A stretch of 44,856 nucleotides of DNA, from positions 1 through 44,856 of the forward strand of contig JANQQU010000055.1 in NCBI GenBank assembly GCA_028284905.1. Direction: 5' to 3'. The notes beneath the pieces were generated by a model. The model was not told the DNA's origin. It worked only from the letters and a program-made list of their open reading frames with translations, and searched no databases. Shown piece by piece: positions 12,323 to 38,029 of this stretch. Origin of the DNA: Calditrichia bacterium. GTDB taxonomy: Bacteria; Calditrichota; Calditrichia; RBG-13-44-9; J075. The first letter of the stretch is position 1; the number at the start of each line of letters is the position of its first letter. A program made the position numbers and the translations under genes.

Positions 12323-15286
12323 ATGCGCCAAACGATCAAAATATTCCTTGCCTCATCCAAGGAACTGAAAGCCGACCGGGAAAAATTTGAACTGTTCATC
12401 GGCCGCAAAAATAAAACCCTTCGCAAAAACGGCCATGCGATCGAGCTGGTGATCTGGGAGGATTTTCTGGATAGTATCTCCCAAACCCGGCTGCAGAATG
12501 AATACAACAAAGCGGTGCGGGAAGCCGATATTTTTGTGATGCTCTGTGCAACTAAAGTCGGCCGTTTTACCCGGGAAGAATTCGAGGCTGCCTTTGGTCA
12601 ATTTAAAGAAACCGGGAAACCGCGGACTTATACCTTTTTTAAAACGGCCCTGGTCGATTTAAACAAAATTCCCTTTGAGGATATTCAGAGCCTCCATGAG
12701 TTTAAGGAACACCTGAAGCGACTGGGGCATTTTCGGAAAGAATACGAAAACGCCGATGATTTAATCAATCAGTTCAATCGGCAGTTGGAGCTGCTCGACC
12801 CGTTTTCCACAGCGGCGCTCACTGGCACGGAAATAATGGCGGTGCCAACGGAAGAAATTCTCAACAAATACCACCAGCAATTGATTCAGGATTCCGATTT
12901 TAACAGCATGCCGGTGATCGGCAAGTCTGAACGGCAGCGCCTGGAGAATCTCTATGTCCGGCTGAAGGTGACCGCGCAGGGCGATAAAACCCTGCTGGCC
13001 GAACGGTTCCGTCAGCCGCAGGGTGAGAAAGATGCCGGCCGGGAGTTGCAGTATCATGACCTCGCACCCGCGGCTGCTATGAATGCCTTCCAACGCTTTG
13101 CGGTGCTAGGGGGACCGGGAATGGGAAAAACCACCCTCTTTCGTTTTATCGCCTATAGCGTGGCCCGGCGGGCGCTGGGGCTGGCTCGGCCGGAGGAGTT
13201 TGCCCTGAAAGGGAAAACAAACCCGCTGCCGCTCTATCTGCCTTTAACGGAATTGGGCGATCATGACGGTGACTTGCTCAGCTGCCTGAAAGGCTACCTG
13301 GCGCGTCGCTTCCCTGGTTGCCAACCGCTGGTTCCCTTACTCGATGTGCTCCTGAACGAAGGGCGCTGCCTGCTTTTGCTGGACAGTCTCGATGAAGTGC
13401 CCTCGGCCCAGCTGGGACGGGTAAAAGACAGCATCAAGGGCTTTTTAAACAATGCCGACTGGCAGGAGAATATTGTGCTGCTCAGCTGCCGGGAAGCCAG
13501 CTGGCAGCCGGCTGAAGCGAGCCTGATTTTCCCGGCGGTGCTGCAGATTGCCGAACTGGATGAAGCGGCCATTGGGGAATACCTGCACCGTTGGTATAAA
13601 GCGGAGGAAAGCGCTGCGGCCTTAACCCTGAAAGAGAAGATCTGCCACACCGCGCGCCTGCAGGCATTGGCGACCAATTCCTTTCTGCTCTCCCTGATCG
13701 CCTGGCTGGCGCAGCGGGACAGATTGCCGGAGCGACGGGTAGAGCTCTATCTGAAATGCACCGACGCCCTGCTCCGGGAAGAACATAAAGAGGCCCAGGA
13801 GCGCCAAACCAGTGCGTTTGGCAGCGATCATGCTGATTTGAAAGAACGCATATTGACCGATATCGCCTTTGCGATGCTGGAAAGAAATCTGCTGGAAATC
13901 TCCCGGAACGATCTGCGGGCGCTGATTTTGAAATTCCTTGGCTCCGAAGACATCACCGACGAGCGTCCCGGAACATTGATCGATGAGATACACAAAGGCA
14001 GCGATATTCTGCGTGAGACCAATGCCGCCCGAATTTACGAGTTTCAGCACAACACTTTCCGGGAATTTTTTGCCGCCCGCAAGCTGTCCGGCGAGCTGTC
14101 CCGGATAATTAAACTGTGGAAAGCACAGGGCGGGGCAAAACCTCCCCTCGAGGATTTTATTAATAGCGAAAAAAACCAACATAATCCTTTGCAGTGGATC
14201 AGCGATTCCCTCTGGACGGAAGTGAACCGCCTTGCCGTGGGCCTCCTTGATCATCCCACCCCATTTTTGGCAATGCTCTTCGCTAAGGAACCCACTCTGG
14301 CCGCCCGCTGTTATCTGGATGCCGATCCGGAAAAAGTTGACCATGCGGTGATCCGAAAGTTATGGACTGGGGGCATCGAGCGGCAGGAACGGGTAAATAT
14401 GGTGCGAAGCATCCGCGAGAATCTCTCGGAAGAGCGGGAGACTCTGGATTTTATTGCCGGCATTTTCCTTACCGGGGAGACCGATAGCGAGGTGCTCTAC
14501 CATTGTGATGCCCTGCTGCGGACCATCGGCACCGTAGAAGCGGGAGAGCTTCGTGGAAAAATGTTCGAATACTGGCCGGAAGAACAGCAATTTTCAGCAC
14601 ATCAGCAAGATTTTGCCAGGGATAAATACTGGCGGTTTGCGGAGATTAAAGCGGGCGAATTTAAGATGGGCGGCAATGGTCATGATTGGGAAAAACCGAT
14701 TCATCCGGTTAAGCTTTCCGCTTTCCGGATCGGCTGCTATCCGGTGACCGTCGGGCAATACCAGCGCTTTGATCCTGGGTATCGCCAGCGGTGGGAGCAG
14801 GGTTATGGAAAATTTATCGAAAATGAGAAACAACCGGTGATACGGGTGAGTTGGTTCGACGCCTATATTTTTTCCAGGTGGGTTGGCGGGAGGCTGCCCA
14901 CAGAAGCGCAGTGGGAATACGCCTGCCGGGCCGGTAGTGATGGTGATTATGCCGGTAAACTGGATGATATGGCCTGGTATAATAAAAATTCAGAAGATAA
15001 AAGTCACCCGGTCGGCGAAAAGCAGGCGAATGCTTGGGGGCTCTACGATATGCATGGTAATGTCTATGATTGGTGCCAGGATTGGTATGGGGCAGACTAC
15101 TATACGGAATGTGAAAAGGAAGGCACTGTGCAGGATCCTCCCGGGCCGGAAAATGGTTCGGATCGGGTGTTGCGCGGCGGTAGCTGGGACTTCAGCGCGC
15201 AGTATTGCCGTTCGGCGTATCGCGGCAGCGCCGGCCCCGGCGGCCGTGGCTACGGCCTCGGCTTCCGGTTGGTTTTCGTCCCGTAG
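12323..15286 (+). CDS. TIR-like/DUF4062-like N-terminus, NACHT NTPase and FGE/C-type-lectin-like end (cluster gene 3)
   Basis: The largest cluster protein, 987 residues. The N-terminus (about 1-115) begins TIKIFLASSKELKADREKF and has WEDFLDS and EADIFVMLCATKVGRFTREEF, which resembles the DUF4062/TIR-like Rossmann group and is a plausible effector. A NACHT module follows, with Walker A GGPGMGKTT (about 263-271), Walker B LLLLDSLDEVP (about 349-359), LLSCREASW, then FQHNTFREFFAARKL. The end (about 772-987) is an FGE-type domain with GEFKMGGNG, LPTEAQWEYACRAG and MHGNVYDWCQDW, closing in a variable region. No membrane segment was seen, in contrast to its neighbours. The start ATG follows AAAGGAAAAGCAGCGCC. 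The TIR-like assignment is from sequence pattern only. Confidence 0.87.
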   Translation: MRQTIKIFLASSKELKADREKFELFIGRKNKTLRKNGHAIELVIWEDFLDSISQTRLQNEYNKAVREADIFVMLCATKVGRFTREEFEAAFGQFKETGKPRTYTFFKTALVDLNKIPFEDIQSLHEFKEHLKRLGHFRKEYENADDLINQFNRQLELLDPFSTAALTGTEIMAVPTEEILNKYHQQLIQDSDFNSMPVIGKSERQRLENLYVRLKVTAQGDKTLLAERFRQPQGEKDAGRELQYHDLAPAAAMNAFQRFAVLGGPGMGKTTLFRFIAYSVARRALGLARPEEFALKGKTNPLPLYLPLTELGDHDGDLLSCLKGYLARRFPGCQPLVPLLDVLLNEGRCLLLLDSLDEVPSAQLGRVKDSIKGFLNNADWQENIVLLSCREASWQPAEASLIFPAVLQIAELDEAAIGEYLHRWYKAEESAAALTLKEKICHTARLQALATNSFLLSLIAWLAQRDRLPERRVELYLKCTDALLREEHKEAQERQTSAFGSDHADLKERILTDIAFAMLERNLLEISRNDLRALILKFLGSEDITDERPGTLIDEIHKGSDILRETNAARIYEFQHNTFREFFAARKLSGELSRIIKLWKAQGGAKPPLEDFINSEKNQHNPLQWISDSLWTEVNRLAVGLLDHPTPFLAMLFAKEPTLAARCYLDADPEKVDHAVIRKLWTGGIERQERVNMVRSIRENLSEERETLDFIAGIFLTGETDSEVLYHCDALLRTIGTVEAGELRGKMFEYWPEEQQFSAHQQDFARDKYWRFAEIKAGEFKMGGNGHDWEKPIHPVKLSAFRIGCYPVTVGQYQRFDPGYRQRWEQGYGKFIENEKQPVIRVSWFDAYIFSRWVGGRLPTEAQWEYACRAGSDGDYAGKLDDMAWYNKNSEDKSHPVGEKQANAWGLYDMHGNVYDWCQDWYGADYYTECEKEGTVQDPPGPENGSDRVLRGGSWDFSAQYCRSAYRGSAGPGGRGYGLGFRLVFVP
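15188..15286 (+). repeat. DGR-type variable region 3
   Basis: Same 99-nt frame and identical 24-nt end as variable regions 2 and 4. Example codons against those two: GAC versus CTC and CGC at codon 1, TAT versus CGT and TTT at codon 6, TAC versus AGC and CGC at codon 22. Third bases are kept, which points to adenine-targeted diversification and not ordinary drift. Confidence 0.8.
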
Positions 15287-15495
15287 TCAGTTGACAGTTC
15301 TCCGGCTTTACCGGTTTTGCAGGAATGCTTCGCTTGAGCAAACGAGTTGGCGGCACGGAGAGAACAGGCACGAGGGACGCAGCGCCCAGTGAACGGAGCG
15401 CAGGCAAGGAGTGGGAGGAAAAGACGAAATGTTATTGATATGAAAAACCATCGCCGAACCCGTAGGATAATTCACGAATGATCCTACGGCGCGGA
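15287..15495 (+). repeat. conserved post-variable-region repeat, copy 2
   Basis: Homologous to copies 1 and 3. The TCGCTTGAGC hairpin has one mismatch here. It carries an additional GC-rich stretch of about 36 nt (GAGGGACGCAGCGCCCAGTG) also found in copy 3. The palindrome with arms CGTAGGAT and ATCCTACG is at 15461-15488. Confidence 0.7.
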
Positions 15496-15568
15496 CATTG
15501 TTTAATTAAAAACCTACAAAGAAAATATTGTAGTTCGCACTCATTTGTAAACCGGAAAGATTGACATT

Positions 15569-17680
15569 ATGGATGCAATTCTGGAACCGATCCTGGCGCT
15601 GTTGGATAATCCCCTGACGAATTTCCTGAAAAACGCCGGACTGGGGGAAGATTGGGCAAAAGCGCTTTCCGCCGCACTGACGGCCTTAATGCTGTGGGGG
15701 GGCGTCGAAGGGGTAAAATGGCTGCAGCAGCGACGAAAAGACAACCGGGCCGCCCGCGAGCTGGTTCATTTCCGCTACAGCTACAAAGACGTGCAGCAAA
15801 AACGGGAATTGTATATCCCCACCCAGGGGCAGAACAACTCCCCGGTGTACGAGGAAGAGCCGGGGGAAGCAACCAAGTTTATTGTGAAAAAACCGCTGAT
15901 TCCCTTCTTTCTCAAAACTGCCTTTAACGAGAAAAAGGAAAGTGATAAATTTTACCTGCTCCTCGGCGATTCCGGGATGGGGAAAACCACTTTTATGATC
16001 AATCTCTACTTGCAGTATCATTCCTGGCGCAACTTTCGCCGCAAATACCAAATGAAGCTCTTCCCGTTTGGCGACAAGGACATTCTCAAATGGATCCGGG
16101 AGATTAAGCCGGAAGAAGCCCGCAATACCATCTTGCTGCTCGATGCTTTTGATGAATACAAGGCGATCCTCCCTCCGAAAGAACCGGACGGCCTTAGCGA
16201 TGATGAACGCTTCCGGAAGGTGCTGGAAGAAATCATCGAGAGCGTAAAGGACTTTCGCGAAGTGGTGATCTCCAGCCGCACCCAATATTTCCCGGGGCAG
16301 GAAGACCGCCCGTACGAATTAAAAATACCGCGCTTCGGCCGGGAAGGTTTTCACACCCTCGGGAAACTCTATCTCGCGCCGTTTGAGAAAAAAGAAATTA
16401 AACGCTATTTAAACAAAAAATATGGCTGGCTGAAATTCTGGAATTATCAGAAAAAGAAGATTGCCAGTGAAGTCGTTGAAAGTTCACCGAAATTGATGGT
16501 ACGCCCGATGCTCCTTAGTTATATCGATTATTTGGTGGATAGTCAGCAAACATTCGAAAAGACCCACCAGATCTACCAGGTGCTCATTGAAAAATGGATT
16601 GAGCGGGAGGCCGATAAGCGGAAGCATAAGTCCGTCGAGCGGGATAAATTTAAGCAGGATCTTCATGCATTTTCCCGGATGGCGGCACTGACAATCTTCC
16701 GGCAGCAGGGAGAAAACAATTTGCTCTCGAAAGCGGAGGCACTGGCAATTTGTACTGAGCATGGCATCGATTTACGCGACTATGAAGTGACCGGTCAATC
16801 CTTGCTCACTCGCGACGTCTCACAAAATTGGAAGTTTGCCCACAAATCGATTTATGAATATTTTATCGCAAAAGAGGCGATCGACCAATTTGGTTTTTGG
16901 GTAAAACTGGCTGCTGCCAACTTTACCGGGATGGATATGGCCAAACAGTTTTATGAGGAAGGAGGGCAGTGGGCATTCGTTAAAGGCGGCACCTTCCTGA
17001 TGGGTTCTCCTGATAGCGAAAAAGATGCATATGATCGAGAAAAACCGCAGCATAAAGTCACCCTTTCCGATTATTGCATCGCGAAAACCCCGGTCACCCA
17101 GAAACAATGGCGGGCAATTATGGGAACTAATCCCTCCTATTTTCAGAATTGTGATAATTGTCCAGTTGAAACTGTCAGTTGGGAGGATGTCCAGAAATTT
17201 ATTGCCAAACTGAATGAGAAGACTGGGATGACATTTCGTTTGCCCAGCGAAGCGGAGTGGGAATATGCTGCCCGCGGAGGCCATAAAATGTTCCTGGCAG
17301 GCAGTGAGGGAAGTGTGCATGTCAGCCAATTCAAATATGCCGGCAGCAATCATTTGGATACAGTGGGCTGGTATCATAAAAATTCCAGGGGAAAAACCCA
17401 TCCAGTCGCTACAAAAAAGCCGAATGAACTGGGCATTTACGACATGAGCGGTAATGTATATGAATGGTGCCAGGATTGGTATGACGAGAATTATTATGCG
17501 GAATGCCAGAAAAAGGGCGTTGAAAAAAAACCCTCCGGGCCGGAAAGTGGTTGGTATCGGGTGTTGCGCGGCGGTAGCTGGCGCTACGGCGCGCAGTTTT
17601 GCCGTTCAGCGAATCGCGACGGCGGCGACCCCGGCAGCCGTGACCGCAGCATCAGCTTCCGGTTGGTTTTCGTCCCGTAG
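15569..17680 (+). CDS. NACHT-type STAND NTPase with FGE/C-type-lectin-like end (cluster gene 4)
   Basis: A 703-residue close paralogue of cluster gene 2; the first 25 residues match well (MDAILEPILALLDNPL) and even the DNA just before the start is shared. It has one hydrophobic segment (about 33-50), Walker A GDSGMGKTT (133-141), Walker B LLLLDAFDEY (about 188-197), SSRTQYFPG, FAHKSIYEYFIAKE, then an FGE domain from about residue 467 with GGTFLMGSP, LPSEAEWEYAARGG and MSGNVYEWCQDW. It ends in a variable region. Duplication of a whole gene-plus-tail unit, followed by diversification of the end, is the simplest explanation. It is convergent with the CHAT gene downstream. Confidence 0.88.
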   Translation: MDAILEPILALLDNPLTNFLKNAGLGEDWAKALSAALTALMLWGGVEGVKWLQQRRKDNRAARELVHFRYSYKDVQQKRELYIPTQGQNNSPVYEEEPGEATKFIVKKPLIPFFLKTAFNEKKESDKFYLLLGDSGMGKTTFMINLYLQYHSWRNFRRKYQMKLFPFGDKDILKWIREIKPEEARNTILLLDAFDEYKAILPPKEPDGLSDDERFRKVLEEIIESVKDFREVVISSRTQYFPGQEDRPYELKIPRFGREGFHTLGKLYLAPFEKKEIKRYLNKKYGWLKFWNYQKKKIASEVVESSPKLMVRPMLLSYIDYLVDSQQTFEKTHQIYQVLIEKWIEREADKRKHKSVERDKFKQDLHAFSRMAALTIFRQQGENNLLSKAEALAICTEHGIDLRDYEVTGQSLLTRDVSQNWKFAHKSIYEYFIAKEAIDQFGFWVKLAAANFTGMDMAKQFYEEGGQWAFVKGGTFLMGSPDSEKDAYDREKPQHKVTLSDYCIAKTPVTQKQWRAIMGTNPSYFQNCDNCPVETVSWEDVQKFIAKLNEKTGMTFRLPSEAEWEYAARGGHKMFLAGSEGSVHVSQFKYAGSNHLDTVGWYHKNSRGKTHPVATKKPNELGIYDMSGNVYEWCQDWYDENYYAECQKKGVEKKPSGPESGWYRVLRGGSWRYGAQFCRSANRDGGDPGSRDRSISFRLVFVP
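17582..17680 (+). repeat. DGR-type variable region 4
   Basis: Aligned without gaps to regions 1-3 and ending in the identical 24 nt. It keeps AAT at codon 11, where the others have GCT, TAT and ACT, consistent with an AAT template codon. The TCA at codon 9 (others TCG) is outside the expected pattern and may be ordinary drift. Confidence 0.8.
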
Positions 17681-18149: not shown

Positions 18150-20552
18150 TCATGCCCCGGACAGCACATAAGCGGCCCAAAAGAAGGGGTGCCGGAACTT
18201 CGGATTAGTAATCATCGCTTGTTGCGCACGCTGTAAGGCAGTTGCCGCTGTTGCCCCCTGCCGTAATTCTCGATAGAAGTGCTGCATAAATACCGCGGAA
18301 GCTTCATCATCGACCTTCCATAAAGTCGACACCACCGATCCGGCCCCGGCATAGAGGAATGCCCGAATCAGTCCGACAAGCTCACCGCCAGCAGAGACAC
18401 CCCGCTCATAGTGTTTTTCCACCCCGGTCTCACATCCGCTCAGCACCACCAGCGAGCGCTTTAATTTCAGGCCAAATACTTCATGGACGTAAAGTCGCCC
18501 TGCATCAGCGCTATCTGGTGCCAGTTGTATCGCGAATAAAAGGGGATCTACCGCTGCAGGAATACTGTGGGCCGCAATATGAATGACATCAAAGCGGCTG
18601 GCACTTTCTTGAAGACGCTTTTTAGTTGCAGTCTTCCCGGTTGCCAATATTACCCCATCCCCAAAAATCTGCTTGATGGCTTTTACTTCCGCATCGATAA
18701 AATGAAGTGATCCGGACGAATATCCCATCGCCAACACCGTTTCGTACGCCGGAATGGCGGGTGGAAAATGCAGCAGATTCATAACGCTGGCTGAAGGGTA
18801 GTTGTTGATGATAAACCGGCTGGTGATAAATTCGTCGCCCTGCACCAGGACTTGAAAAGGCAGATAATGCAAATAATCATCCGGCAGTATAATGAGCGAG
18901 TCGATTTCATTTAGCAGGCCATTGACATTCAGTGAATCAAATAATACCTGTCCTAAATATTGGGCCCGGGTGCGCCAGAAATGGTCGTCCAGCCGGTCTT
19001 TTTGCATCTGATCGATAAAGCCGTTGATTTCCCGGCGCAGCTCTATTCGTGAAAGCGCCACTTTGAAGACGTTTAACTGATGATTCGTAACGGCGCAAAT
19101 TAAGAGGTAGTCTTCCAGCGCCGCATATTGCAACAGAAGTGTTTTGGCAGGGATTCGGTGCTGCACATCGCCTAAACCAATCGAAACACCCGCTAAAAGG
19201 GCGCCGGTATTCGCAACGTCCGATTTTAGCGCTTTCATGTAATTCGCATATTCTGCTTCGGCAGTATCGATCTGCGCCAGCAATGCTCGAAACCCCGGTT
19301 CCTGAGTCGGGTTGGTGGTGGTTGAATAATCGCTGATTATTTGCGAATGGAGATTGGCAATATCATTCCGTAAACGGCGTGCTGTTCCGCTGACTGTGCT
19401 GTCAGCGCTGGCGGCAAGGGCTGATTCTCGGCTGGCGAGCAGACCCAGGAATGTGCGGGACTTCGCTTTTTCGATATAATCAAAAACGGCTTCATCATCG
19501 CCTAACTGATAAGCAAGGTCGATTTGTTTTTCAAGCAGATATCTTATTCTCTCATAATAGCTGGCCCGGTTCTGCTCATTTTTTAATCGATTGACAATCC
19601 GTTCCCGTGCTGCGACTGCCCGCTCATAGGCTACCAATGCTTTCTTTTTCTCGCCCATTTCACGGTGTATATCCTCGAGGTTTTCATAGGCATTGCCGAC
19701 CAGGTCCAGATCCTGAATGGCAGCGGCATTCTCTATCACCGTATTCAGCAGGGCTATCGCACGGGAATGATCCTTCAACTTTGCGGCAACGTAAGCCAGG
19801 GTAAAACGAATTTTCCCCTTTGACAGATTCGCCAGTAGAATACTGTTATCATCGATTATTTTTCGAAACCGAATTTTACTTTTTCCCTGCCCGACAATAT
19901 TACGGATCAATGGATCCGCAGAGAACTGGCCGATTTTATTGAGAATTGGTGATACCGCTTCGGTGCGCTGACGTTTGTCGTAATTCTTGAATTCCCGTTC
20001 CCAGAACTCGGTGAGTGCTTTGCTGGTGAGTCTAGCGGTGATCTTTTCCCGAAAAGGCAGATCGGTTAATAAGCGGGCTGCAGTGAAGATCGTTGCACCG
20101 GGAATTTCCATTGCGGTTAGCAAGGTGTGCCGGAAGATATGCTCCATCTTGGTCCCCCAGGATTTTTCGTAGAGCATTTTAAATATTTCGATAATTCCGG
20201 CCACCAATACCGAACGATGCTCCGGTGCAACCGCTTCTAATAAATTCAGCGATATGGGATGCTTCCGATCTGCCGGATTGAAATAGATGACATCATTGAT
20301 GCGATGAGACGGGATGCGCTCCAATAGTCTTTCAATCAAGTCACCATGCGGTTCCAGGATTGCCAGACCCTCTCCCTGATGAATATCAGAAAGAATCAGG
20401 TTTTCCAGCAATGTGGTTTTTCCCATACCGGTTTTACCTAAAACATACATGTGATAGCGCCGGTCGGCTCTCTTGATGCCGAAGGGCTGCTGCCGGTGGC
20501 GGAAGTTGGTCTTTGCAAAAACAGTTACATTGTTCTCCGATGCCTGTGCCAT
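18150..20552 (-). CDS. chimeric protein: truncated conjugative-type ATPase fused to TPR and CHAT protease
   Basis: 800 residues. Residues 1-248 match the front half of a VirD4/DUF87-type ATPase: FGIKRADRRYHMYVLGKTGM with P-loop GKTGMGKT (39-46), ILEPHGDLIERLL, VIYFNPADRKHPISLNLLE and ending SILLANLSKGKI. The family then normally continues into its second half with Walker B; here the reading passes in frame (about 19811) into a TPR-like helical region (about 250-370) and then a CHAT caspase-like domain (about 470-800). CHAT dyad candidates are His662 in HIAAHS (Ser replaces the usual Gly) and Cys707 in LSGCETG. The end TLWKVDDEASAVFMQHFY fits CHAT. Family knowledge: CHAT proteases are effectors in bacterial immunity. 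The ATPase half lacks its Walker B, so hydrolysis is doubtful. The fusion could be a real gene or a recombination product; the frame is open throughout. Confidence 0.85.
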   Translation of the reverse strand: MAQASENNVTVFAKTNFRHRQQPFGIKRADRRYHMYVLGKTGMGKTTLLENLILSDIHQGEGLAILEPHGDLIERLLERIPSHRINDVIYFNPADRKHPISLNLLEAVAPEHRSVLVAGIIEIFKMLYEKSWGTKMEHIFRHTLLTAMEIPGATIFTAARLLTDLPFREKITARLTSKALTEFWEREFKNYDKRQRTEAVSPILNKIGQFSADPLIRNIVGQGKSKIRFRKIIDDNSILLANLSKGKIRFTLAYVAAKLKDHSRAIALLNTVIENAAAIQDLDLVGNAYENLEDIHREMGEKKKALVAYERAVAARERIVNRLKNEQNRASYYERIRYLLEKQIDLAYQLGDDEAVFDYIEKAKSRTFLGLLASRESALAASADSTVSGTARRLRNDIANLHSQIISDYSTTTNPTQEPGFRALLAQIDTAEAEYANYMKALKSDVANTGALLAGVSIGLGDVQHRIPAKTLLLQYAALEDYLLICAVTNHQLNVFKVALSRIELRREINGFIDQMQKDRLDDHFWRTRAQYLGQVLFDSLNVNGLLNEIDSLIILPDDYLHYLPFQVLVQGDEFITSRFIINNYPSASVMNLLHFPPAIPAYETVLAMGYSSGSLHFIDAEVKAIKQIFGDGVILATGKTATKKRLQESASRFDVIHIAAHSIPAAVDPLLFAIQLAPDSADAGRLYVHEVFGLKLKRSLVVLSGCETGVEKHYERGVSAGGELVGLIRAFLYAGAGSVVSTLWKVDDEASAVFMQHFYRELRQGATAATALQRAQQAMITNPKFRHPFFWAAYVLSGA

Positions 20553-23785: not shown

Positions 23786-24268
23786 ATGGTAGATATGCTA
23801 GTGTTCGAAGGAGGAATTGATCAATATAGTGATGAAGAATTGCTTTCCCTAATTGTTGGTTGTAAAAAGTCTGCCAGAGAACTGATGAGCAGTTTTACCG
23901 ATATCCATGCACTGGCTGTCCGGGAAGAACAGGAATTCTCATTGGTGAAAGGCATTGGCAAGCAGAAAGCCAGGCGATTATATGCTGTTTTTGAGCTTAA
24001 CCGCCGGTTATCCAGTTACCCACCGACGCCGGGGTTAAAAATAAGTGATCCGGAAGTGGTGTTCAGTTATTTCGGGCCACTGATGTCCCACCTGAAGAAA
24101 GAAGTCTTTATCATACTCCCCCTGAACAGTGCAAACAAGTTGATCCGACCGATGAAGATATCAGAAGGTCTCTTAAATTCCGCGCTGGTCCACCCACGGG
24201 AAGTATTTCGCCCGGCTATTCTGGAGTGTGCTGCCAGTATTGTTCTGGTGCATAATCACCCCAGCGGA
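23786..24268 (+). CDS. radC: RadC-like JAB/MPN protein, 5' exon (gene split by group II intron)
   Basis: The first 161 codons of a RadC (UPF0758) protein. The N-terminal helix-hairpin-helix is visible as LVKGIGKQKARRLYAVFELN. The JAB metalloprotease-like domain follows and stops at LVHNHPSG. The group II intron enters directly after this Gly codon. Joining to 26807-26953 restores HNHPSG-EVAPSIED, so that HxH, seven residues, S, two residues and D make the complete JAMM motif. The spliced product would be 209 residues, close to a normal RadC. Unspliced translation runs on to a stop at 24316 and gives a protein without the motif. RadC-like proteins are common in ICEs near ArdC. Confidence 0.9.
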
Positions 24269-24840
24269 GTGCGCCTGTATGGCGTGATATATCAGCAACT
24301 TATGGAGAGAACATAAGTTATGAATTCCTTACAACATTCATTAGCCAGCGACTTACCTGGCGGAGAAATCCAAAGGGGACAAGAGCATGTCGCGAAAAGG
24401 GAGAAAGACGACAGAGCCAAACATGTCGAGTCAGTCTCTCAGGCTAAGTGGTGTATGGTGAAAGCTACACTGCCTGAACCCCAGACCAATGGGCGATGGG
24501 TGCGCGGGTACCTACTTTGGCTAACAGGTACTTTGAGTGAAATCGTTGGACTTCGCCTGAGTCCATGTGTTCTCCGCTTACGAACGATAGTAAGGTTCAC
24601 TCACCAATGCTATGTCATAGCAAACGGTCGAAAAGGGCGCCTAACCACCACGCAACTGATTTATTACGTAATGCAGGGATACCTAAGTGGGAACGTCACT
24701 TACTGTGGCTATTGGAACTTTAAGGTTTCTGAATATCTCATATGGTGTCAGAGCTTTCATATTACCCAACGTTTGCCTGTAATGGGTTTAGCATGGGGAA
24801 GGAAAGCAGGTTGATCTTAACGTCAATAACTAAAGGAGTC

Positions 24841-26727
24841 ATGAATATGGCAACAGATCCATTTAGGCAATTAGACGTTATTCGCAATGCTTCTGCCATT
24901 GGCAAACGGGTAACCGATTGCTATCGGCTAATGTTTAAACGGAGTCTCTGGATAAAGGCGTATGCAAAGCTTGCTCCCAATTCCGGGAATCTTACCAGAG
25001 GAACGGATGATCAAACCATCGATGGTTTCAGTTTTAAGATCATCGAGGAGTTGATCAGCAAGCTGCGCAATGGAACGTTTCGATTTTCCCCGGTCAGGAG
25101 GGTATATATACCCAAGAAAAACCGGAAACGAAGACCCCTGGGTGTGCCTAACTTCAAAGACAAGTTAGTCCAAGAAGTGATGAGAATGATCCTGGAAAGC
25201 ATCTATGAGCCGGTATTTTCTGAAAACTCTCACGGATTCAGACCCAGCAGAAGCTGTCATACGGCACTTACTCAGATCAAGCACACCTGGAAAGGGCTTA
25301 AGTGGTGTATTGAAGGCGACATCAAAGGATGTTTCGACAACATATGTCACAAAAATCTAATGGCTATTTTGGGTAAGAAAATCGACGACCGCAGGTTCTT
25401 ACTACTTATCCATAATCTGCTTAAATGCGGATACATGGAACAGTGGCAGTATCACAAAACCTACAGTGGCGCGCCGCAAGGCGGAATCGCTTCGCCAATC
25501 CTGGCTAATGTGTATCTGCATGAGTTGGATTCATTTATGGAAAATCTGATCCGAACCTTTGATAAAGGCAAGGTCAGACTCAGGAATCCCGAATACAAGA
25601 GTATACGCTACAAACTCTCTCAGGTAATGCAGAATGTCAGAGAGAACGACGAACGATATCACTCTCAGGAGTGGCAAGGCAGGGAAGCCCTGGTTCAAGA
25701 GATCAAACGTCTGAAAAAAGCACAACTGAAAGTCAGTTCCATTGATCCTCTTGATCCCACTTACCGAAGGATGAAATACGTAAGGTATGCGGATGATTTC
25801 GTCATCGGTATTGCCGGCACAAAGCAGGAAGCTGCCACTGTTAAGGATAGGATCAAAGCGTTCCTCGATCAAACATTGTCGCTGGAACTATCAAACGAGA
25901 AAACGCTCATCACCCATTTGGAGAATAGAGTTCCGTTCCTCGGATACCGGTTTTTCACATGGAATGATCAGAAAATCACCAGGGTTCAATACAGAAATCA
26001 TAATAAACCGGTGATCAAACGAACCCTGTCGGGCGCTATCAAATTAGAGATTCCCGGACAAAAAATGATCGACTACGTCAAGAAGAAGGGATACGGATGC
26101 CTGCAAAAGCTCACCAGTAAAGACAAGCCCGCGCTTCTGAATAACTCCGAAGTCGAAATACTCTACACTTACAATACGGAGCTCAGAGGCCTGGCTAATT
26201 TCTATCAGTTGGCTAACAATTACCATCACTTAGATCGCCTGTTCCACGTTGCCCAGTATAGTTTCATGAAGACACTGGCGGCAAAGCGACGCAGCACGGT
26301 TGGTAAGGTAGCCAAAGAAATGTCTAGTCACCTACAAGGAGAGCTATGTTTACTGGTTGGCAATAAAGCAGGGCAGAAGAAACCCCACAAACTGGTGCGT
26401 CTGAAACATCTGCCAAAGAAAAAGACAGGTCAGGCAGGCAAACCGGATGTGGATATCATACCCAATGTGGAAAGATACTCCAGTTCTACGGAACTTGAAA
26501 GACGACTCATGGCCAACACTTGCGAAGCTTGCGGCACTACCGTAGGCCAAATGGAAGTCCATCATGTGAGGAAACTCAAGGATATCCGTAGAAAAAAGAA
26601 CAAGACAAAATGGGATAAAGTGATGATCGAACGTCAGAGAAAAACATTAGTCCTCTGCTATAACTGTCACCACTTACACCATGAGAAGCAAATTCCGATC
26701 GATCAACTGGAGAGCCGGATGACTTGA
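24841..26727 (+). CDS. ltrA: group II intron reverse transcriptase-maturase with HNH endonuclease
   Basis: 628 residues from the ATG at 24841, chosen because TAAAGGAG lies just before it; an upstream in-frame ATG at 24742 is within intron RNA. Reverse transcriptase blocks are clear: RPLGVPNFKDKLVQEVMRMI, HGFRPSRSCHTAL, DIKGCFDNI, APQGGIASPILANVYLHELD and the YADD catalytic motif in VRYADDFVIG. The maturase (X) region follows, then an En domain with CEACG...VHHVRKLKD and CYNCHHLHH (zinc-binding HNH). The QGGIASP motif marks a group II intron RT, not a DGR RT. The stop codon lies inside domain V of the intron. Confidence 0.95.
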   Translation: MNMATDPFRQLDVIRNASAIGKRVTDCYRLMFKRSLWIKAYAKLAPNSGNLTRGTDDQTIDGFSFKIIEELISKLRNGTFRFSPVRRVYIPKKNRKRRPLGVPNFKDKLVQEVMRMILESIYEPVFSENSHGFRPSRSCHTALTQIKHTWKGLKWCIEGDIKGCFDNICHKNLMAILGKKIDDRRFLLLIHNLLKCGYMEQWQYHKTYSGAPQGGIASPILANVYLHELDSFMENLIRTFDKGKVRLRNPEYKSIRYKLSQVMQNVRENDERYHSQEWQGREALVQEIKRLKKAQLKVSSIDPLDPTYRRMKYVRYADDFVIGIAGTKQEAATVKDRIKAFLDQTLSLELSNEKTLITHLENRVPFLGYRFFTWNDQKITRVQYRNHNKPVIKRTLSGAIKLEIPGQKMIDYVKKKGYGCLQKLTSKDKPALLNNSEVEILYTYNTELRGLANFYQLANNYHHLDRLFHVAQYSFMKTLAAKRRSTVGKVAKEMSSHLQGELCLLVGNKAGQKKPHKLVRLKHLPKKKTGQAGKPDVDIIPNVERYSSSTELERRLMANTCEACGTTVGQMEVHHVRKLKDIRRKKNKTKWDKVMIERQRKTLVLCYNCHHLHHEKQIPIDQLESRMT

Positions 26728-26745
26728 AAGGGTCACGTCCGGTTC
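26712..26745 (+). ncRNA. group II intron domain V
   Basis: A 34-nt hairpin starting GAGCCGGATGACTTGAAAGG and closing in CGTCCGGTTC, the catalytic core of group II introns. The stem arms pair in the expected way. The maturase stop codon (26725-26727) falls within its 5' strand. Confidence 0.9.
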
Positions 26746-26806
26746 GGTGGGGGGGATCGTGAAACCTGCCGTAGCAATATGGTAAGGCGCATGGTCTCTA
26801 CCCAAT

Positions 26807-26953
26807 GAGGTGGCTCCATCGATTGAAGATAGAAAAATTACGCAACGCTTATCAGATGCCGGTAAACTGATGGATATTCCAGTCCTGGATCATATCATTG
26901 TTGGACAGAATAGATACTTTAGTTTTCGGGAGGAGGGATTCGTATTTGAGTGA
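26807..26953 (+). CDS. radC: RadC-like protein, 3' exon
   Basis: 48 codons in frame with the 5' exon after intron removal. It encodes EVAPSIEDRKITQRLSDAGK and then VLDHIIVGQNRYFSFREEG, the usual RadC C-terminus with the Ser and Asp of the JAMM motif. It has no start of its own. The stop is TGA at 26951-26953, followed by a terminator at 26992. Confidence 0.9.
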   Translation, partial: EVAPSIEDRKITQRLSDAGKLMDIPVLDHIIVGQNRYFSFREEGFVFE

Positions 26954-31191: not shown

Positions 31192-32121
31192 ATGAAGGTC
31201 GCAAAATTCCAATTTGCGCTTCAGACGGCCAATTCCTACGGTTTACCGGCATTTAAAGGCTCCACCTTCCGTGGGAAGTTCGGTCATGTCCTCAAGCGCA
31301 CTATCTGCGTCAAGCAGCAGCGCTATTGTCCCGATTGTGAACTGCGCGGGCAATGCGCCTATCCCTATCTTTTTGAATCATTTAACGAAAAAGGGCAGAA
31401 CGTTCCCCGCCCCTTTATCATCGAACCCCCCTTAACAAAAAAACGGCATTTCCTGAAGGATGAATGGATGTATCTCCAGCTGATCCTGGTCGGTAAAGCG
31501 ATCGATTACCTGCCCTTTTTTGTCTATTGCTTCGACCTTATGGGCCAGGAAGGGATCGGGATGGACCACGGACGTTACCGGGTGGTTTCCGGGCGGGCCC
31601 TGGATACTTCTGGCGAGCAAGTTCCCATCTACGACGGAGACAGCAAACAACTACTCAACCGCTTTCCAATAATCGATCTCGATGCCTTCCGGGGCACCCT
31701 GCAAAACCGGGTCACCCTGGATTTTTACACCCCGGCGCAGATCCGCATCAAGGGAAAGACCTGCTATCGGATCACCTTTCCGGTGTTACTGAAAAATATC
31801 ATCCGCCGTTACCAGAGTCTGCGTTACTACCATAGCAATGGGGAAAAGGAACGCTATGAGATCGACTGGGCGGCAGCGGAAAAAGTGCGGGTGGTTTCAG
31901 CGGATCTGAACGAGCAGCACTTCAAGCGTTACTCCAATCGCCAGAAGCGCCCGGTGCGCCTCGATGGCTTTACCGGAAAGATCACATTTGAGGGCGATCT
32001 TTCCCCGTTTCTGCCCTGGCTGAAAATTGGCGAGTTTCTTCATGTTGGTAAAGGCGCGGTGTTTGGGATGGGAGGATATTGGATGGAGGATAAAATGATA
32101 GAATATAAGCAAACATTTTAA
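31192..32121 (+). CDS. cas6: CRISPR precrRNA-processing endoribonuclease Cas6
   Basis: 309 residues of the larger Cas6 group. The N-terminal RAMP fold includes FKGSTFRGKFGHVLKRTICV, then a Cys cluster CPDCELRGQC that resembles a small zinc knuckle, then a second RAMP-like half. It ends with the glycine-rich loop GKGAVFGMGGYW, the hallmark of Cas6. It would cut the pre-crRNA within the repeat and leave ATTGAGAC as the 5' handle. The catalytic histidine cannot be assigned from sequence alone. It is the first gene of the operon and starts 75 nt after the -10 box. Confidence 0.9.
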   Translation: MKVAKFQFALQTANSYGLPAFKGSTFRGKFGHVLKRTICVKQQRYCPDCELRGQCAYPYLFESFNEKGQNVPRPFIIEPPLTKKRHFLKDEWMYLQLILVGKAIDYLPFFVYCFDLMGQEGIGMDHGRYRVVSGRALDTSGEQVPIYDGDSKQLLNRFPIIDLDAFRGTLQNRVTLDFYTPAQIRIKGKTCYRITFPVLLKNIIRRYQSLRYYHSNGEKERYEIDWAAAEKVRVVSADLNEQHFKRYSNRQKRPVRLDGFTGKITFEGDLSPFLPWLKIGEFLHVGKGAVFGMGGYWMEDKMIEYKQTF

Positions 32122-32138
32122 ATCTGAGGTAAAGACCT

Positions 32139-33791
32139 ATGACTTGCAGTGCTGTTTTGATGGATACCATGTCCATTCAGAAATACATTTTTCGCAGTAA
32201 CCGCCTGCGGGAAAATCTCGGCGCCTCCTTCTTGGTGAAGGATATTTATCATTCCCATTTGGAAGACTGTCTGAAAGATGTTTTTCCAAATATCTCTCTG
32301 AATCTAACCGCCTGGCAGGAATCAGGAAAATATCAGGAAAGCTTACTTGATCAGCAGCCGGTTGAAGTGGGATATATCGGTGGCGGAAATGCTTTGCTAT
32401 TATTTGCAGATGCAGAAAAAGCACGCGCTTTTGTCAAATCCTGGACAACGCGACTATTGGTTTATACACCTGGTATCGTTCCCGCAATTGCTATAATGGA
32501 TGACTTTGATCGGGATAATTTCCGGGAAGCTAAAAAAGCGTTGTTCACAAAACTCGGGGAAAATAAATCCTTTTATATCCCGGCAACCACCCTTCCCCGG
32601 CACGGTTTTACTGACGAGTGCCGCAGCAGTGGGCTATCAGCGGAAGTTTGGCATAGTTTTGATAAGGAGAATGAAACCGAACGTAATGCCTATTTCTCCG
32701 CTGCTACCAAGGCAAAAATTAGTGCTTCGCAAAATTCCAGGGATGAGATAAACGCGTATTTAAAACGTCTGCAAACGGAATCTAATAGCAATATTACTGA
32801 GGAGTTTTGCTTTACCAATAACCTGGAATTGCTGGGTCAGGAAGAAGATAAGGACAACGACATTGCAATCGTTCATATCGACGGTAACGGGATCGGGAAA
32901 AAATTCCAGGAAACCAAAACCCTGGCAGAAATCCGCCAGCTGTCCAGTGCGGTTAAAATCGCTACAGAGAATGCTTTTTGTGAACTACTGGATCAGATTA
33001 TTAAAGATTTCCCTAAAATTGAAAAAGAATTCAAAATTCAGTATCAGAACAGCAAAAAAGTGCTTCCCTTGCGGCCGATTATTATTGGTGGTGACGATAT
33101 CACCTTTGTCTGCCCGGCCAAGCTGGGAATTTACTTCGCACGGATTTTCCTGGAAAAATTTGAAGCAGAAGATATTCGGGTCGGTGATGAAAAAATCCCC
33201 CACGATGCCTGTGCCGGTATCGTAATGGTCAAAACCAAATACCCGTTTTTCCGGGCCTATGAACTGGCGGAAGAATTATGCGCCAACGCCAAGGTTTACC
33301 GGCGTTCCCCGGCAAGTAGCGATGGAGAAGGCAGCTTCCTGGATTTCCATATTACCTTTGGTGGATTCACCGGCAGCCTCTCCGAAATTCGCGAAAAACA
33401 ATACAGAGTGCCCCAGGGAGATTTATTAAACCGGCCTTACCGATTCAAGAGCAGCGGTATGAAAGATTTTGATACGCTGGTTGATAATGCCCGCAAACTG
33501 TGTTGGAAGGATCCGGAAAAAGAAGAAACCAATTTTGCCCATAATAAAATCAAGGAATTGCGCGCTGTGCTCTCCAAAGGGGAAAGCGCTGCTGTCAACT
33601 TTGTAAAATCGGTAGCGGCCAGGAAAGCGGAGAGCTTTCATAGCTTAGCGGTGGAAAGTGATTTTAAAAGGAGGCTGTTTAGTTTTCCAAAAGATCCTGA
33701 AAAATCCTACACGCCATATTTCGATATGATCGAATTGGCTGAATATTATCCCGAATATGTGCTGAAAAAATCCCGGGAGGAGGAAGAATGA
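32139..33791 (+). CDS. cas10: Cas10 large subunit without HD domain (type III-D)
   Basis: 550 residues, shorter than Cas10 proteins with HD nuclease. The protein opens directly with the first Palm-like part (MTCSAVLMDTMSIQKYIF, LRENLGASFLVKDI), so no HD domain is present. The second Palm has IAIVHIDGNGIGKKF and the cyclase motif Gly317-Gly318-Asp319-Asp320 in IIGGDDITF. Family knowledge: GGDD makes cyclic oligoadenylate on target RNA binding, and III-D Cas10 proteins typically lack HD. Prediction: this complex signals through cyclic oligoadenylate but does not itself cut DNA by an HD site. Its end overlaps the next gene by 4 nt. Confidence 0.92.
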   Translation: MTCSAVLMDTMSIQKYIFRSNRLRENLGASFLVKDIYHSHLEDCLKDVFPNISLNLTAWQESGKYQESLLDQQPVEVGYIGGGNALLLFADAEKARAFVKSWTTRLLVYTPGIVPAIAIMDDFDRDNFREAKKALFTKLGENKSFYIPATTLPRHGFTDECRSSGLSAEVWHSFDKENETERNAYFSAATKAKISASQNSRDEINAYLKRLQTESNSNITEEFCFTNNLELLGQEEDKDNDIAIVHIDGNGIGKKFQETKTLAEIRQLSSAVKIATENAFCELLDQIIKDFPKIEKEFKIQYQNSKKVLPLRPIIIGGDDITFVCPAKLGIYFARIFLEKFEAEDIRVGDEKIPHDACAGIVMVKTKYPFFRAYELAEELCANAKVYRRSPASSDGEGSFLDFHITFGGFTGSLSEIREKQYRVPQGDLLNRPYRFKSSGMKDFDTLVDNARKLCWKDPEKEETNFAHNKIKELRAVLSKGESAAVNFVKSVAARKAESFHSLAVESDFKRRLFSFPKDPEKSYTPYFDMIELAEYYPEYVLKKSREEEE

Positions 33792-34429
33792 GAACCTTAC
33801 GAATTGAACTTCAATTAGCCGCCGATGCGCTGGTTGGCTCCGGAGAAGGATTTGGCGCCCTTATCGACAGTGATGTCGTTTTTGATGATCTTGGTGTTCC
33901 TTATATCCCCGCCAAGCGGATTAAAGGATGCCTGTTACAATCTGCCCGGGAAGTAGAAGCGATGCTTAAGAGCGCGGGAATCGATAGAGAAATGAATATC
34001 AAGACAGCTTTCGGGGAGCAAGGCAGCAGCGTTTCTGCACCGCTCTTTTTCAATAATCTCTTTATTGACAATTATGAAAGTAATTATCAATGGTTAAAAT
34101 ATCTCGCAGATAGCTACGCCGGAGTCGTCTCTGCAGAAACCATTCTAAGCGCCTTTACAAACCAGCGCCAGCAAACGGCGATTGATCAGGAAAATGGTGT
34201 TGCTCTCGATCATTCCCTGCGAACGATCCGGGTGATTCAAAGCGGACACACCTTTTATGGTGATCTGGATTGCCCGGAAGAAAACGCATTCGATGAACTC
34301 CTGGCACTGGCCTGCGCAAATCTGAAAAGAATCGGCACCAAACGCACCCGTGGCTTTGGGGAAGTGCGCTGCCGTTTATGGGAAAACAATACCGATTTAA
34401 CTGATAAATATGTGAAGGGGTTGGCATGA
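33788..34429 (+). CDS. Csm3-like single-domain Cas7 RAMP protein
   Basis: 213 residues. The start overlaps the cas10 stop and has GGAGGAGG before it. It shows GSGEGFGALIDSDVVFDDLG and VPYIPAKRIKGCLLQSA, the usual N-terminal Cas7 arrangement with an aspartate in the position used for target RNA cleavage, and ends with a glycine-rich loop TKRTRGFGEVRC. It would form part of the backbone of the type III effector. It could also be called Csx7-like. Confidence 0.85.
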   Translation: MRTLRIELQLAADALVGSGEGFGALIDSDVVFDDLGVPYIPAKRIKGCLLQSAREVEAMLKSAGIDREMNIKTAFGEQGSSVSAPLFFNNLFIDNYESNYQWLKYLADSYAGVVSAETILSAFTNQRQQTAIDQENGVALDHSLRTIRVIQSGHTFYGDLDCPEENAFDELLALACANLKRIGTKRTRGFGEVRCRLWENNTDLTDKYVKGLA

Positions 34430-36012
34430 CAAAATACTGTTTGCGTTATCGAATCAAAACGCTGGCGCCGATCCTGATGACCCGGGTTGTGGCCAGCACC
34501 AATATGTTGTCGACGGAAAAATATCTAAGCGGCTCTGCGCTTTTGGGGATGTTTGCGAACCATTATCGCTCCACTGTAAAAGCAAAAAACGAACTTCACA
34601 AGGATGATTTGTTTTACCGCTGCTTCTTAAGTGGTGGCTTGCATTTTACCAATGCCTACATTACACAGGAAATTGAGAGAGATGAGGGTCCGCAAACTTT
34701 TTATCCCGTCCCGCTTTCCTTCCAAAAAGAAAAGAACGCCGAGGAATTACTGGACCGCCTCTGGGATGAAAGTGATAAGGCAACCGGTAACGCCGGCCTG
34801 GAATATGTCGCACTAGCGGATGACGATGAAGTAAAATTGGTTCATCATACCCACGTTGACACCGTTTTAAACTTTCACCACGAACGCAATTGGCAAAGTG
34901 GTACTGCGCTCGCCGGCAATTTTTTCAATTACGAAGCGATCGCTGCCGGCCAGCTTTTTAACGGATGCATTCTTGGGAGCCGGGAAACACTTGAAAGCTT
35001 CTTAAAAATCATGAAAGATTTCCAATCCGGCAGACTGGGACGCTCAAGAACCGCACAGTATGGAAAAATCGAGTTTGAATGGTTAAATAGCGAACCGGAA
35101 GAGTTTCATGGTGAAATTCCCAATACGGCTGAAAAGGCAAATGATTTACAGCATAACACCGTAACCATTACGCTGCTTTCCGATACGATCATTTATAATA
35201 AATTCGGCTTTTCATCTACAAATCCGGAGGATCTCGGTAGATATCTAAAGCATCTGAAAATCAGGAAAGCATTCGCTAAAGTCGGCGATACGGAAAATTT
35301 CCTGGCTGTCTGGCGTCTGAAGAAGCCTTCTGAACGCTGTTTCGCAAAGGGCTCAACATTTGAGGTTGAGGTGCCGGATGACAACGGAAAAGCTGCACTC
35401 CTGGATTTGCAAGTGAATGGCTTGGGAGAAAGACGTCAGGAAGGTTTTGGGCGCCTGGTGCTGGATTGGCAACGCGCAGGGAAAGTCAGTAAGGTAGATT
35501 CCGATCAAAATGATGAGGAAAGTCAGGAGAAAAACAGTGTCGAAAAACCCGATTTTCCATTACCGGAAACGGCAAAAGAGACGGTCAAAAAGATCTTCAG
35601 TGAAGCGATTAGCAAAAGCGTAGTAGCCCAGGCCCTCGATACCGCTCAAAACTTTAAAAAATTACCCAGTAAATCCCTGATCGGGCGCCTGGAGCAGTTA
35701 GCAAAAACGAAAAACGTTGCTGACTTTAGAAAAGATATCAAAGCGTTACGTAAAACTGCCAAAACCCAACTGGAAGAATGCCATCCCAAAAATAGTGCTG
35801 TTCATTCCAACTTATTTGATTTCCTAAAGAGCAGTTATTTTAACATTACCTCTCTTCTTGCAGAGCCGCACAATACTGATCTGCAAAAACTGCTCGAAGA
35901 CGGCATTATTGAATATGACCTGGAGGATGCCGAATTCATTGAACAACTACAAAAAACATACTTGAAATCGTTTTTCGCCCTGTTGCGAAAATTGAAAAAG
36001 AGCGAGGGTTAA
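34426..36012 (+). CDS. csx10: Csx10 (Cas5-group RAMP of type III-D) with C-terminal helical extension
   Basis: 528 residues. The front part (about 1-350) fits Csx10: LRYRIKTLAPILMTRVVAST, the segment VLNFHHERNWQSG and the closing loop GLGERRQEGFGRLVL. A charged linker (about 355-375) follows, then about 150 residues that are almost all helical (VKKIFSEAISKSVVAQAL to TYLKSFFALLRKLKKSEG). No separate small-subunit gene (Cas11/Csm2) is seen in the operon, so the extension may be a fused Cas11-like part; this is inference. The start overlaps the previous stop by 4 nt. Confidence 0.8.
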   Translation: MTKYCLRYRIKTLAPILMTRVVASTNMLSTEKYLSGSALLGMFANHYRSTVKAKNELHKDDLFYRCFLSGGLHFTNAYITQEIERDEGPQTFYPVPLSFQKEKNAEELLDRLWDESDKATGNAGLEYVALADDDEVKLVHHTHVDTVLNFHHERNWQSGTALAGNFFNYEAIAAGQLFNGCILGSRETLESFLKIMKDFQSGRLGRSRTAQYGKIEFEWLNSEPEEFHGEIPNTAEKANDLQHNTVTITLLSDTIIYNKFGFSSTNPEDLGRYLKHLKIRKAFAKVGDTENFLAVWRLKKPSERCFAKGSTFEVEVPDDNGKAALLDLQVNGLGERRQEGFGRLVLDWQRAGKVSKVDSDQNDEESQEKNSVEKPDFPLPETAKETVKKIFSEAISKSVVAQALDTAQNFKKLPSKSLIGRLEQLAKTKNVADFRKDIKALRKTAKTQLEECHPKNSAVHSNLFDFLKSSYFNITSLLAEPHNTDLQKLLEDGIIEYDLEDAEFIEQLQKTYLKSFFALLRKLKKSEG

Positions 36013-36015
36013 TAA

Positions 36016-37431
36016 ATGAGTAAAACAATCAGACCCTTAAAAGGGCGGCTGCTACTAACCGGTGAAGTGCAACTGCTTTCTCCGGCGATTATCGGCTGCG
36101 GAGAAAATGAACGCGCTGACATCGATCTGCTTTTAGATAATGAGGGTAAACCATTTATTCCCGCTACTTCGTTCGTTGGTGTGCTGCGCAGCTATCTCAC
36201 CGCGCAGGTATTGGACAGAGAAGGCGTTTCGAAAAAAGACACCGCAGATGATTTAAAACGCTTTTGGGGATTTCCCCCCAAAGAACAAATATCAGAAAGT
36301 GAGCCGGAAAGGCAAAGCAATCTCCGCTGTGCCAATCTTCATATGAAAGCAGCCGAGCAGCCGGTGACCGCCGTTCGCGATGGTATCGCTATTGAAAATA
36401 AAACCGGCATCGTCAAAACCGGCGCAAAATATGAATATGAAATCGTCGAAAGAGACACCGTCTTTCAGCTAACCATGGAAGCCGAATACGAAGATGATAA
36501 CGAAAAGTTTGTGAAGCAGATGATGAAGACGATCAGGGATGAATTGGAGAAGGGAAATGTGCAGGTTGGCGCGAAAACCAATAACGGGATGGGGCAGCTT
36601 AAATTGACAGCAGCAAAAATATATGATTACGATTTTTCTGCCAAGGATTCAGTCGTTGCCTGGCTGAGTAACGAAAAAAATGTGCCGGAATTGGCGGATA
36701 ATATTAAAGCTTTTCCATTAACCACCCAGGATGCTGTTCTCGAAGCTGATTTTGATCTGGCGAATGCGTTGATTATACGTGCCTATGAGGGTGAACATAG
36801 CGATGCCACCCACATTGAAAGCAATGGTAAAAAAATCATCCCGGGCAGTTCCCTGAAGGGCGCGCTGCGCTCCCGGGCGGAAAGAATTTTAAATACGATT
36901 TCCGGCGGTGAAGAAAAATATACCAGCGCTATTCTTAATAATCTCTTTGGGTTTGTCTCCGAGGAAAGTAAAGAGGCCCGGAAAGGCCGCCTGAAAGTCG
37001 CAGAAAAAAAACTCCCGGCATTTGTTGCGCAAGTGCAGCGGCGGATTAAAATCGATCGCTTTACCGGCGGCACCATCGAAGGAGGATTATTCGATTCAAT
37101 GCCTTTGTTCAATCATTTCAAAAATGAAGAGACTATTGATCTAAACAAAAAAGTAGTTCAACTGAAAGTCACCGTCAAAAACTGCCGGGAGCATGAGGGC
37201 GGCTTGCTGGTCTTGCTCTTAAAAGATCTCTGGACCGGGGATCTCGCTATTGGCGGTGAGAAAAACATTGGGCGTGGGGTTTTCCGGGGGCTTGCTGCAA
37301 AACTAACGATTGGGCCGGAGGTGATAAACCTGACGCAATCGCTGGAAATCAGCGATGCAGACCAGGAGAAGCTGCAAGGATATGTCGACGCTCTCAACAA
37401 TTATACGCCGGGAGGGAAAAAGGATGAGTAA
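36016..37431 (+). CDS. fused tandem Cas7-Cas7 RAMP protein
   Basis: 471 residues with two complete Csm3-like halves. First half (about 10-215): GCGENERADIDLLL (Asp35/Asp37 as cleavage candidates), PFIPATSFVGVLRSYL, VRDGIAIENKTGIVKTGAKY and glycine loop GAKTNNGMGQL. Second half (about 245-445): EGEHSDATHIE (Asp263), IIPGSSLKGALRSRAERIL, RRIKIDRFTGGTIEGGLF and loop GGEKNIGRGVFRG. Two Cas7 backbone units are thus covalently linked. Fused Cas7 units are known in III-D2 and, at full length, in the single-protein III-E effector, so this operon holds an intermediate-like state. Confidence 0.85.
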   Translation: MSKTIRPLKGRLLLTGEVQLLSPAIIGCGENERADIDLLLDNEGKPFIPATSFVGVLRSYLTAQVLDREGVSKKDTADDLKRFWGFPPKEQISESEPERQSNLRCANLHMKAAEQPVTAVRDGIAIENKTGIVKTGAKYEYEIVERDTVFQLTMEAEYEDDNEKFVKQMMKTIRDELEKGNVQVGAKTNNGMGQLKLTAAKIYDYDFSAKDSVVAWLSNEKNVPELADNIKAFPLTTQDAVLEADFDLANALIIRAYEGEHSDATHIESNGKKIIPGSSLKGALRSRAERILNTISGGEEKYTSAILNNLFGFVSEESKEARKGRLKVAEKKLPAFVAQVQRRIKIDRFTGGTIEGGLFDSMPLFNHFKNEETIDLNKKVVQLKVTVKNCREHEGGLLVLLLKDLWTGDLAIGGEKNIGRGVFRGLAAKLTIGPEVINLTQSLEISDADQEKLQGYVDALNNYTPGGKKDE

Positions 37432-38029
37432 TTTGAAAGCCAATGGCTTATCTCTGAAAAGGGCCGACTCTGCTGAAGAAATATTCGAGGGAATAAAAAG
37501 TCTTGAGGAAGGACTGGCGAAACTTTCCCCTGATGCCTCCTTTGATCTGCTTGCCTACCTGGATTACCGGGTTTTAACGGGTACCTACACTACCGGCCAG
37601 CCGCCCGGATTTCAATTCCCGAAAAAGGATGACACCCTGGAGGATAAATACATCCAGAAGATTCGCATATTTAATGAAAATGAAGAGTTGTTGCTTTGGC
37701 GTGCGGAAGGTGGTTTTAACGGCCGCCTGCGCAGAGATGACGATACCGGCAACAGCAATGCATTCGTAGAAGCCAACCAGATTGTTTTTGGCACTCAATC
37801 GGAAAAACTGGCAAAGTTCACTCGCCTGTGGGAAGAGCGCGGTACAGAATTCTTTGTGCCGGGGGATTTACCAGTCGATACCGAAAAGATCAGTCTGCAG
37901 CAGCGGGTAGCTATTCAAACCCGTAATTATATCGGTCATATTGGAGAATCCGGTGGTACTGGTTTAGAACCGGCCCAGGCTACCTATATCGATTGCCGCT
38001 TTGTTAAATTTGTTCTCCTGGAAGACTAA
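37424..38029 (+). CDS. csx19: Csx19-like type III-D protein
   Basis: About 201 residues from the ATG at 37424, chosen because GGAGGG precedes it and because it overlaps the previous stop by 8 nt. It contains LLAYLDYRVLTGTY, a beta-rich centre and a C-terminal region ERGTEFFVPGDLPV...QQRVAIQTRNYIGHI followed by YIDCRFVKFVLLED, which resembles the TIGR03984 family found in III-D loci. The function in the complex is unknown. Confidence 0.7.
   Translation: MSNLKANGLSLKRADSAEEIFEGIKSLEEGLAKLSPDASFDLLAYLDYRVLTGTYTTGQPPGFQFPKKDDTLEDKYIQKIRIFNENEELLLWRAEGGFNGRLRRDDDTGNSNAFVEANQIVFGTQSEKLAKFTRLWEERGTEFFVPGDLPVDTEKISLQQRVAIQTRNYIGHIGESGGTGLEPAQATYIDCRFVKFVLLED

Follow-up and report, generated by a model that had tools for sequence, protein, structure and literature searches.

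The radC gene in the 44,856-nt stretch of Calditrichia bacterium DNA analysed here (the window) is split by a group IIA (ML-class) intron, which is very probably a mobile retrointron that homes to a fixed point of radC genes, directly 3´ of the codons for the HNHPSG segment of the JAMM motif. At the sequence level, the intron has defined boundaries, its removal restores the reading frame, its EBS1 and EBS2 pair with the upstream exon and its protein is intact; the same insertion point is occupied in 35 genomes by introns of one clade. Comparison of these copies further suggests that the lineage carries two working EBS1 hairpins of differing specificity, so that one retroelement would probably recognise both UCN and AGY serine codons; the ribozyme itself would then contain a strategy for dealing with codon degeneracy. 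Mobile introns with conserved targets must cope with species-to-species differences in the codons of the same protein. A pair of alternative EBS1 loops, if true, would be a direct RNA solution and would alter the reading of the IIA target rules. Group II gene-targeting tools depend on EBS1 programming, so an intron that naturally has two targets would also be of practical interest.

The split radC gene and its intron

Exon 1 of radC (23786–24268, plus strand) encodes 161 amino acids ending in HNHPSG and covers approximately columns 1–76/77 of the Pfam RadC family (PF04002, E 6e-22). Exon 2 (26807–26953, plus strand) encodes 48 amino acids, beginning with EVAPSIED, followed by a stop codon, and covers columns 77–120 (E 1e-13). 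The intron between them (24269–26806, plus strand; 2538 nt) starts with GTGCGCC, and its RNA ends, GUGCGCC...CCAAU, agree with the group II 5´ GUGYG and 3´ AY boundaries and are accompanied by domains 5 and 6 (26710–26806, plus strand), a full-length match to RF00029 (61.1 bits, E 1e-9). Since this model fits 26710–26806 from its first to its last position, the 3´ boundary is independent of the reading frame. The first-pass annotation had placed the intron exactly between HNHPSG and EVAPSIED, and this position holds: removal of the intron leaves an uninterrupted 210-aa RadC frame that reads HNHPSG|EVAPSIED and includes HNHPSGEVAPSIED, and the RF00029 match ends exactly at 26806. The intron is present as a single copy in its 8.55 Mb genome. 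A further open reading frame inside domain I (24320–24814) matches no family and was considered a chance occurrence.

The upstream exon is contacted at two adjacent points. IBS2 (CACCC, 24257–24261, plus strand), which lies in the His-Pro codons, pairs at 5/5 positions with its complement EBS2 (GGGTG, 24498–24502, plus strand), a pairing accompanied by covariation in relatives. IBS1 (AGCGGA, 24263–24268, plus strand), which constitutes the Ser-Gly codons, pairs at 6/6 positions with TCCGCT (24573–24578) in the loop of hairpin B (24569–24585, plus strand). The perfect EBS1 match proposed earlier from the letters of the window is therefore confirmed, and TCCGCT occurs only once in the intron. 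EBS2 and the second EBS1-like loop described below are additions to that first reading. The intron RNA would splice with the aid of its own protein, and the resulting ribonucleoprotein would reverse-splice into other radC genes, with EBS2 placed on the His-Pro codons and EBS1 on the Ser-Gly codons; the intron would then be copied by its RT and HNH domains. Because the HNHPSG peptide is essential to the enzyme, the targets differ mainly at synonymous positions.

The intron-encoded RT/maturase/HNH protein (24835–26727, plus strand; 630 aa) contains RVT_1 (E 6e-33), maturase (E 3e-13) and HNH (E 3e-17) domains and is the product of the sole RVT_1 gene of the genome. It scores 290.9 bits against NCBIfam TIGR04416, under the cut-off of 300. 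Its nearest solved relative is LtrA of Lactococcus lactis (E 8e-134, residues 22–616), and this similarity over almost the full length places the window intron among the IIA/ML introns. C24572, located just before EBS1, faces G+1, as IIA delta pairing predicts, and is the candidate delta base; almost every copy has a C immediately before EBS1, and position +1 is G wherever exon 2 was read. The IIA/ML assignment is based on the closest solved protein and the delta base. The Ll.LtrB intron, which encodes LtrA, recognises its exon in the same IIA manner, through EBS1, EBS2 and the C that adjoins EBS1 opposite G+1, but its target gene is different (a relaxase gene); we know of no second EBS1 hairpin in Ll.LtrB. 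An intron in radC is itself already known: O.i.I2 of Oceanobacillus iheyensis, which encodes a degenerate ML protein (PMC4424553), likewise has exons that encode RadC and belongs to the same protein class, a likeness at the level of gene and class. O.i.I2 has lost YADD, whereas the window copy is intact with YADD present, belongs to another phylum and lies on a putative conjugative element. No second EBS1 is mentioned for O.i.I2 in that review.

The same radC point in other genomes

In the chromosomal radC of Virgibacillus alimentarius, the identical codon boundary is likewise interrupted, by an intron whose protein is 61% identical to that of the window. A search for the same intron in other radC genes, as the first-pass annotation had proposed, was productive. 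The junction pattern (the HNHPSG codons followed by GTGYGNC) matched 28 of the 159 genomes of V. alimentarius's family, with no match for the reversed pattern, and RadC exon 2 follows in 28/28 of these copies. A protein-only search of the order returned six further full-length proteins (74–87% identity), all at the same radC boundary, and in these copies too the intron 3´ end and RadC exon 2 follow. An initial reading, from a sparse sampling of the class, that the same-site lineage is confined to one family was discarded when the order-level search found these six copies. Together with the window, insertions between HNHPSG and (D/E)xxPS are present in 35 genomes, and the bacterial species other than that of the window with a related intron at this exact point number at least 34. 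Every encoded protein with about 58% identity or more comes from an intron at the HNHPSG site. Related introns at unrelated sites, which had been expected to speak against homing, were also looked for: in the 159-genome family, every protein match of at least 63% identity sits in radC, with no close relative off the site. Further out in the wider clade, other sites are indeed occupied, by introns whose proteins have no more than about 48% identity.

The protein tree groups all proteins of this radC site into a single clade (support 1.000), in which the window copy is sister to the rest. The window genome lies outside V. alimentarius's order, and the intron has therefore crossed phyla and kept its target. 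Among 40 genomes of the window's own phylum, the junction is absent from all others, and protein matches reach 44% at best. These distributions bear on the alternative that the intron is inherited vertically and is immobile at the site, so that the shared position reflects descent and not homing. Many Bacillota copies have decayed or lost proteins and reside in chromosomal radC genes, which is consistent with immobility. However, most genomes of V. alimentarius's family have no insertion at the site, intact proteins persist, and the window genome, an outsider to the order without another copy in its phylum, carries the intron in the radC of a putative conjugative element; we consider strictly vertical descent improbable.

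Homing to radC genes elsewhere is strongly supported, with homing itself read from the patchy distribution of the copies. The suggestion that the intron homes to the radC genes of other mobile elements stands in part: the identical radC site is used elsewhere, but the other hosts are nearly all chromosomal radC genes of Bacillota. Searches of plasmids and phages returned only relatives of less than 60% identity, and the Bacillota protein as query gave no match there at E 1e-150; a domain I DNA search on plasmids gave a 46-nt match only, and protein scans of viral contigs gave no relatives. Two matches to the junction pattern on viral contigs (L012, L013) lack domain 5 and were attributed to chance. 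The window genome contains a second radC, which is chromosomal, has no intron and lies next to a radA-like gene (the neighbour was recognised by reading the sequence); this copy is spelled TCCGGG at the site and is thus a poor match.

The copies at this point range from intact to ORF-less. Unbroken proteins are encoded by the window copy, L066, L069, L073 and L131–L134; intermediate copies have proteins with stops, frameshifts or missing RT parts, and other introns, such as L057 and L059, have no recognisable protein. The decayed and ORF-less copies retain their exons and domain 5/6, which suggests that protein-less introns still splice. Such a series at one site would be a record of a mobile intron turning into a splicing-only element of a chromosomal gene. 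The opposite reading, in which the insertion inactivates radC by failing to splice and the gene is a remnant, draws on Ll.LtrB-type introns, which can lower host-gene expression (PMC6003770). It is the least probable of the alternatives; against it speak exons that remain intact and in frame, both in the window and in relatives, the retention of domains 5 and 6 in ORF-less copies, and EBS1/IBS1 pairing that survives the loss of the protein. Upstream of one intron-bearing radC, a match to the RAGATH-18 RNA was observed (L060:97-190, 50.5 bits).

Two EBS1-like loops and the spelling of the target

The pairing of EBS1 with the resident exon was examined in 29 introns at the HNHPSG site by taking, within the EBS1 region of 62 nt, the 6-mer that pairs best. 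The score against the own exon is 5.47/6, compared with 4.80 (sd 0.09) for permuted exons, and 0/20,000 permutations reach it, a value that overstates independence because the copies share ancestry. Matched exon/EBS1 pairs include AGCGGT/ACCGCT, TCTGGT/ACCAGA, TCTGGC/GCCAGA and TCAGGT/ACCTGA. The exon changes that EBS1 tracks are synonymous and include three AGY-serine exons that lie in separate parts of the tree. EBS2 behaves similarly in relatives: GGATG is present only opposite CATCC exons, and all CACCC exons face GGGTG, although common ancestry weakens the covariation of both EBS1 and EBS2 as formal probabilities. Intact copies in CATCC exons retain GGGTG, which can pair with both CATCC and CACCC through G-U.

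Hairpin A (24547–24565, plus strand), located beside EBS1 hairpin B in the window, presents a second EBS1-like loop, TTCGCCTGA. Its GCCTGA (24555–24560) is the complement of TCAGGC, another Ser-Gly spelling. Loop A therefore reads TCAGGC, with a UCN serine, whereas loop B reads AGCGGA, with an AGY serine. Each hexamer was scored against all 24 codon pairs that can spell Ser-Gly, with G-U counted as 0.5; a random hexamer scores 6 in 0.6% of cases and at least 5.5 in 2.3%. At a threshold of 5.5, chosen by eye, the first eight full-length copies qualify in 7/8 for loop A and 8/8 for loop B, and 11/12 loops qualify at the same two positions in six copies fetched afterwards. Among 12 equally spaced copies, 11/12 reach at least 5.5 for A and 11/12 for B, with 8/12 perfect for each. 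The profile of the region in these copies contains zero perfect Ser-Gly matches outside both loops and one minor shoulder (4/12). The loop positions are nevertheless among the most variable of the region, with 8 and 9 distinct hexamers among 12 copies. In most copies, one loop reads a UCN serine and the other an AGY serine, and 14/14 copies have a loop that belongs to the class of the resident serine codon and reaches a score of 4.5 or more. The stems are maintained around the variable loops: the pairs of hairpin A are standard in 12/12 copies, with G-C/A-U exchanges, and those of hairpin B are standard except for the innermost.

Among copies with near-full proteins, 12/14 have two good loops; among two-hairpin copies whose proteins have decayed, 0/7 do (Fisher P 3e-4, again overstated by shared ancestry; the permissive loop assignment in decayed copies was also made by eye). 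Decayed-protein copies retain a single good loop, for example A in L059, L064 and L072 and B in L058, L065 and L067. The simplest reading is that two alternative EBS1 loops widen the usable spellings of one conserved motif. The neighbouring hairpins would serve as alternative EBS1s, typically for UCN and AGY serines, so that differently spelled targets could be used; once the protein is lost, the sole loop to be retained, for splicing, would be the one matching the resident exon. A less probable alternative is that the intron is a normal site-specific one that uses a single EBS1, the other loop being a copied or displaced relic of an earlier EBS1 without a present role. The decayed copies, which would splice, if at all, with a single loop, and the shared flanks of loops A and B (UAUC-hexamer-G), which are expected from duplication, are consistent with such a relic. 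However, a relic loop would be expected to drift away from the Ser-Gly-complementary set, yet the variable loops remain complementary in 8/8 copies with unbroken proteins, including UCN/AGY switches in either loop.

In four intact copies (L066, L069, L074 and L131), the better loop is still mismatched with the own exon at −4 or −1. In these copies and L002, the mismatch of the better EBS1 loop often falls at −4, where the serine codon has its third base. A −4 mismatch to the own exon is perhaps tolerated in homing.

A literature search for a second, alternative, additional or duplicated EBS1 returned unrelated cases only, and the dual EBS1 proposed here is new as far as that search went. In C.te.I1 of Clostridium tetani, an altered EBS1 region shifts exon recognition (PMC3919590), but this class B intron has an enlarged single EBS1 loop and a shifted splice site, not two loops of differing specificity.

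A second radC site offers a further comparison. Four genomes (G006:C1, G032:C27, G130:C8 and G141:C33; L091–L094) contain two radC introns each, one behind VHPREV and one behind HNHPSG, separated by an exon of 21 codons, and some genomes carry only the VHPREV-site intron. The VHPREV|FREA introns (L140, L125, L126, L091, L092, L094) are ML-type and occupy the same gene 21 codons upstream, but their proteins are about 40–48% identical where measured. They also have two EBS1-like loops, which are often identical or include one decayed loop: L140 and L125 have AACTTC in both, and two loops are also present in L126, L091 and L094. The double EBS1 hairpin may thus predate the HNHPSG lineage. The frequent occurrence of AACTTC in both loops brings no gain in specificity and counts against the dual-specificity reading.

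Genes around the intron-bearing radC

The radC of the window adjoins conjugation genes, and the integrase, TrwC, ArdC-like and coupling-protein genes suggest a conjugative element. They include a tyrosine integrase (703–1728, minus strand) and a TrwC relaxase-helicase without its N-terminal part (2080–4242, minus strand). The TrwB coupling-protein gene is apparently split (4786–5772, minus strand; 7222–17680, plus strand; 18150–20552, minus strand): the N-terminal part forms an in-frame fusion with TPR and CHAT domains, and the C-terminal part lies about 12 kb off. Between the two parts are four genes, each of which encodes a NACHT/STAND-like NTPase region and an FGE-sulfatase domain. Type III CRISPR-like genes for RAMP and Cmr3-like proteins and a Cas_NE0113 protein are located at 31192–42314 (plus strand) and 43438–44375, together with repeat arrays of the unit GTCGCATGCTTCCTCGCTATTAATAGAGGATTGAGAC.
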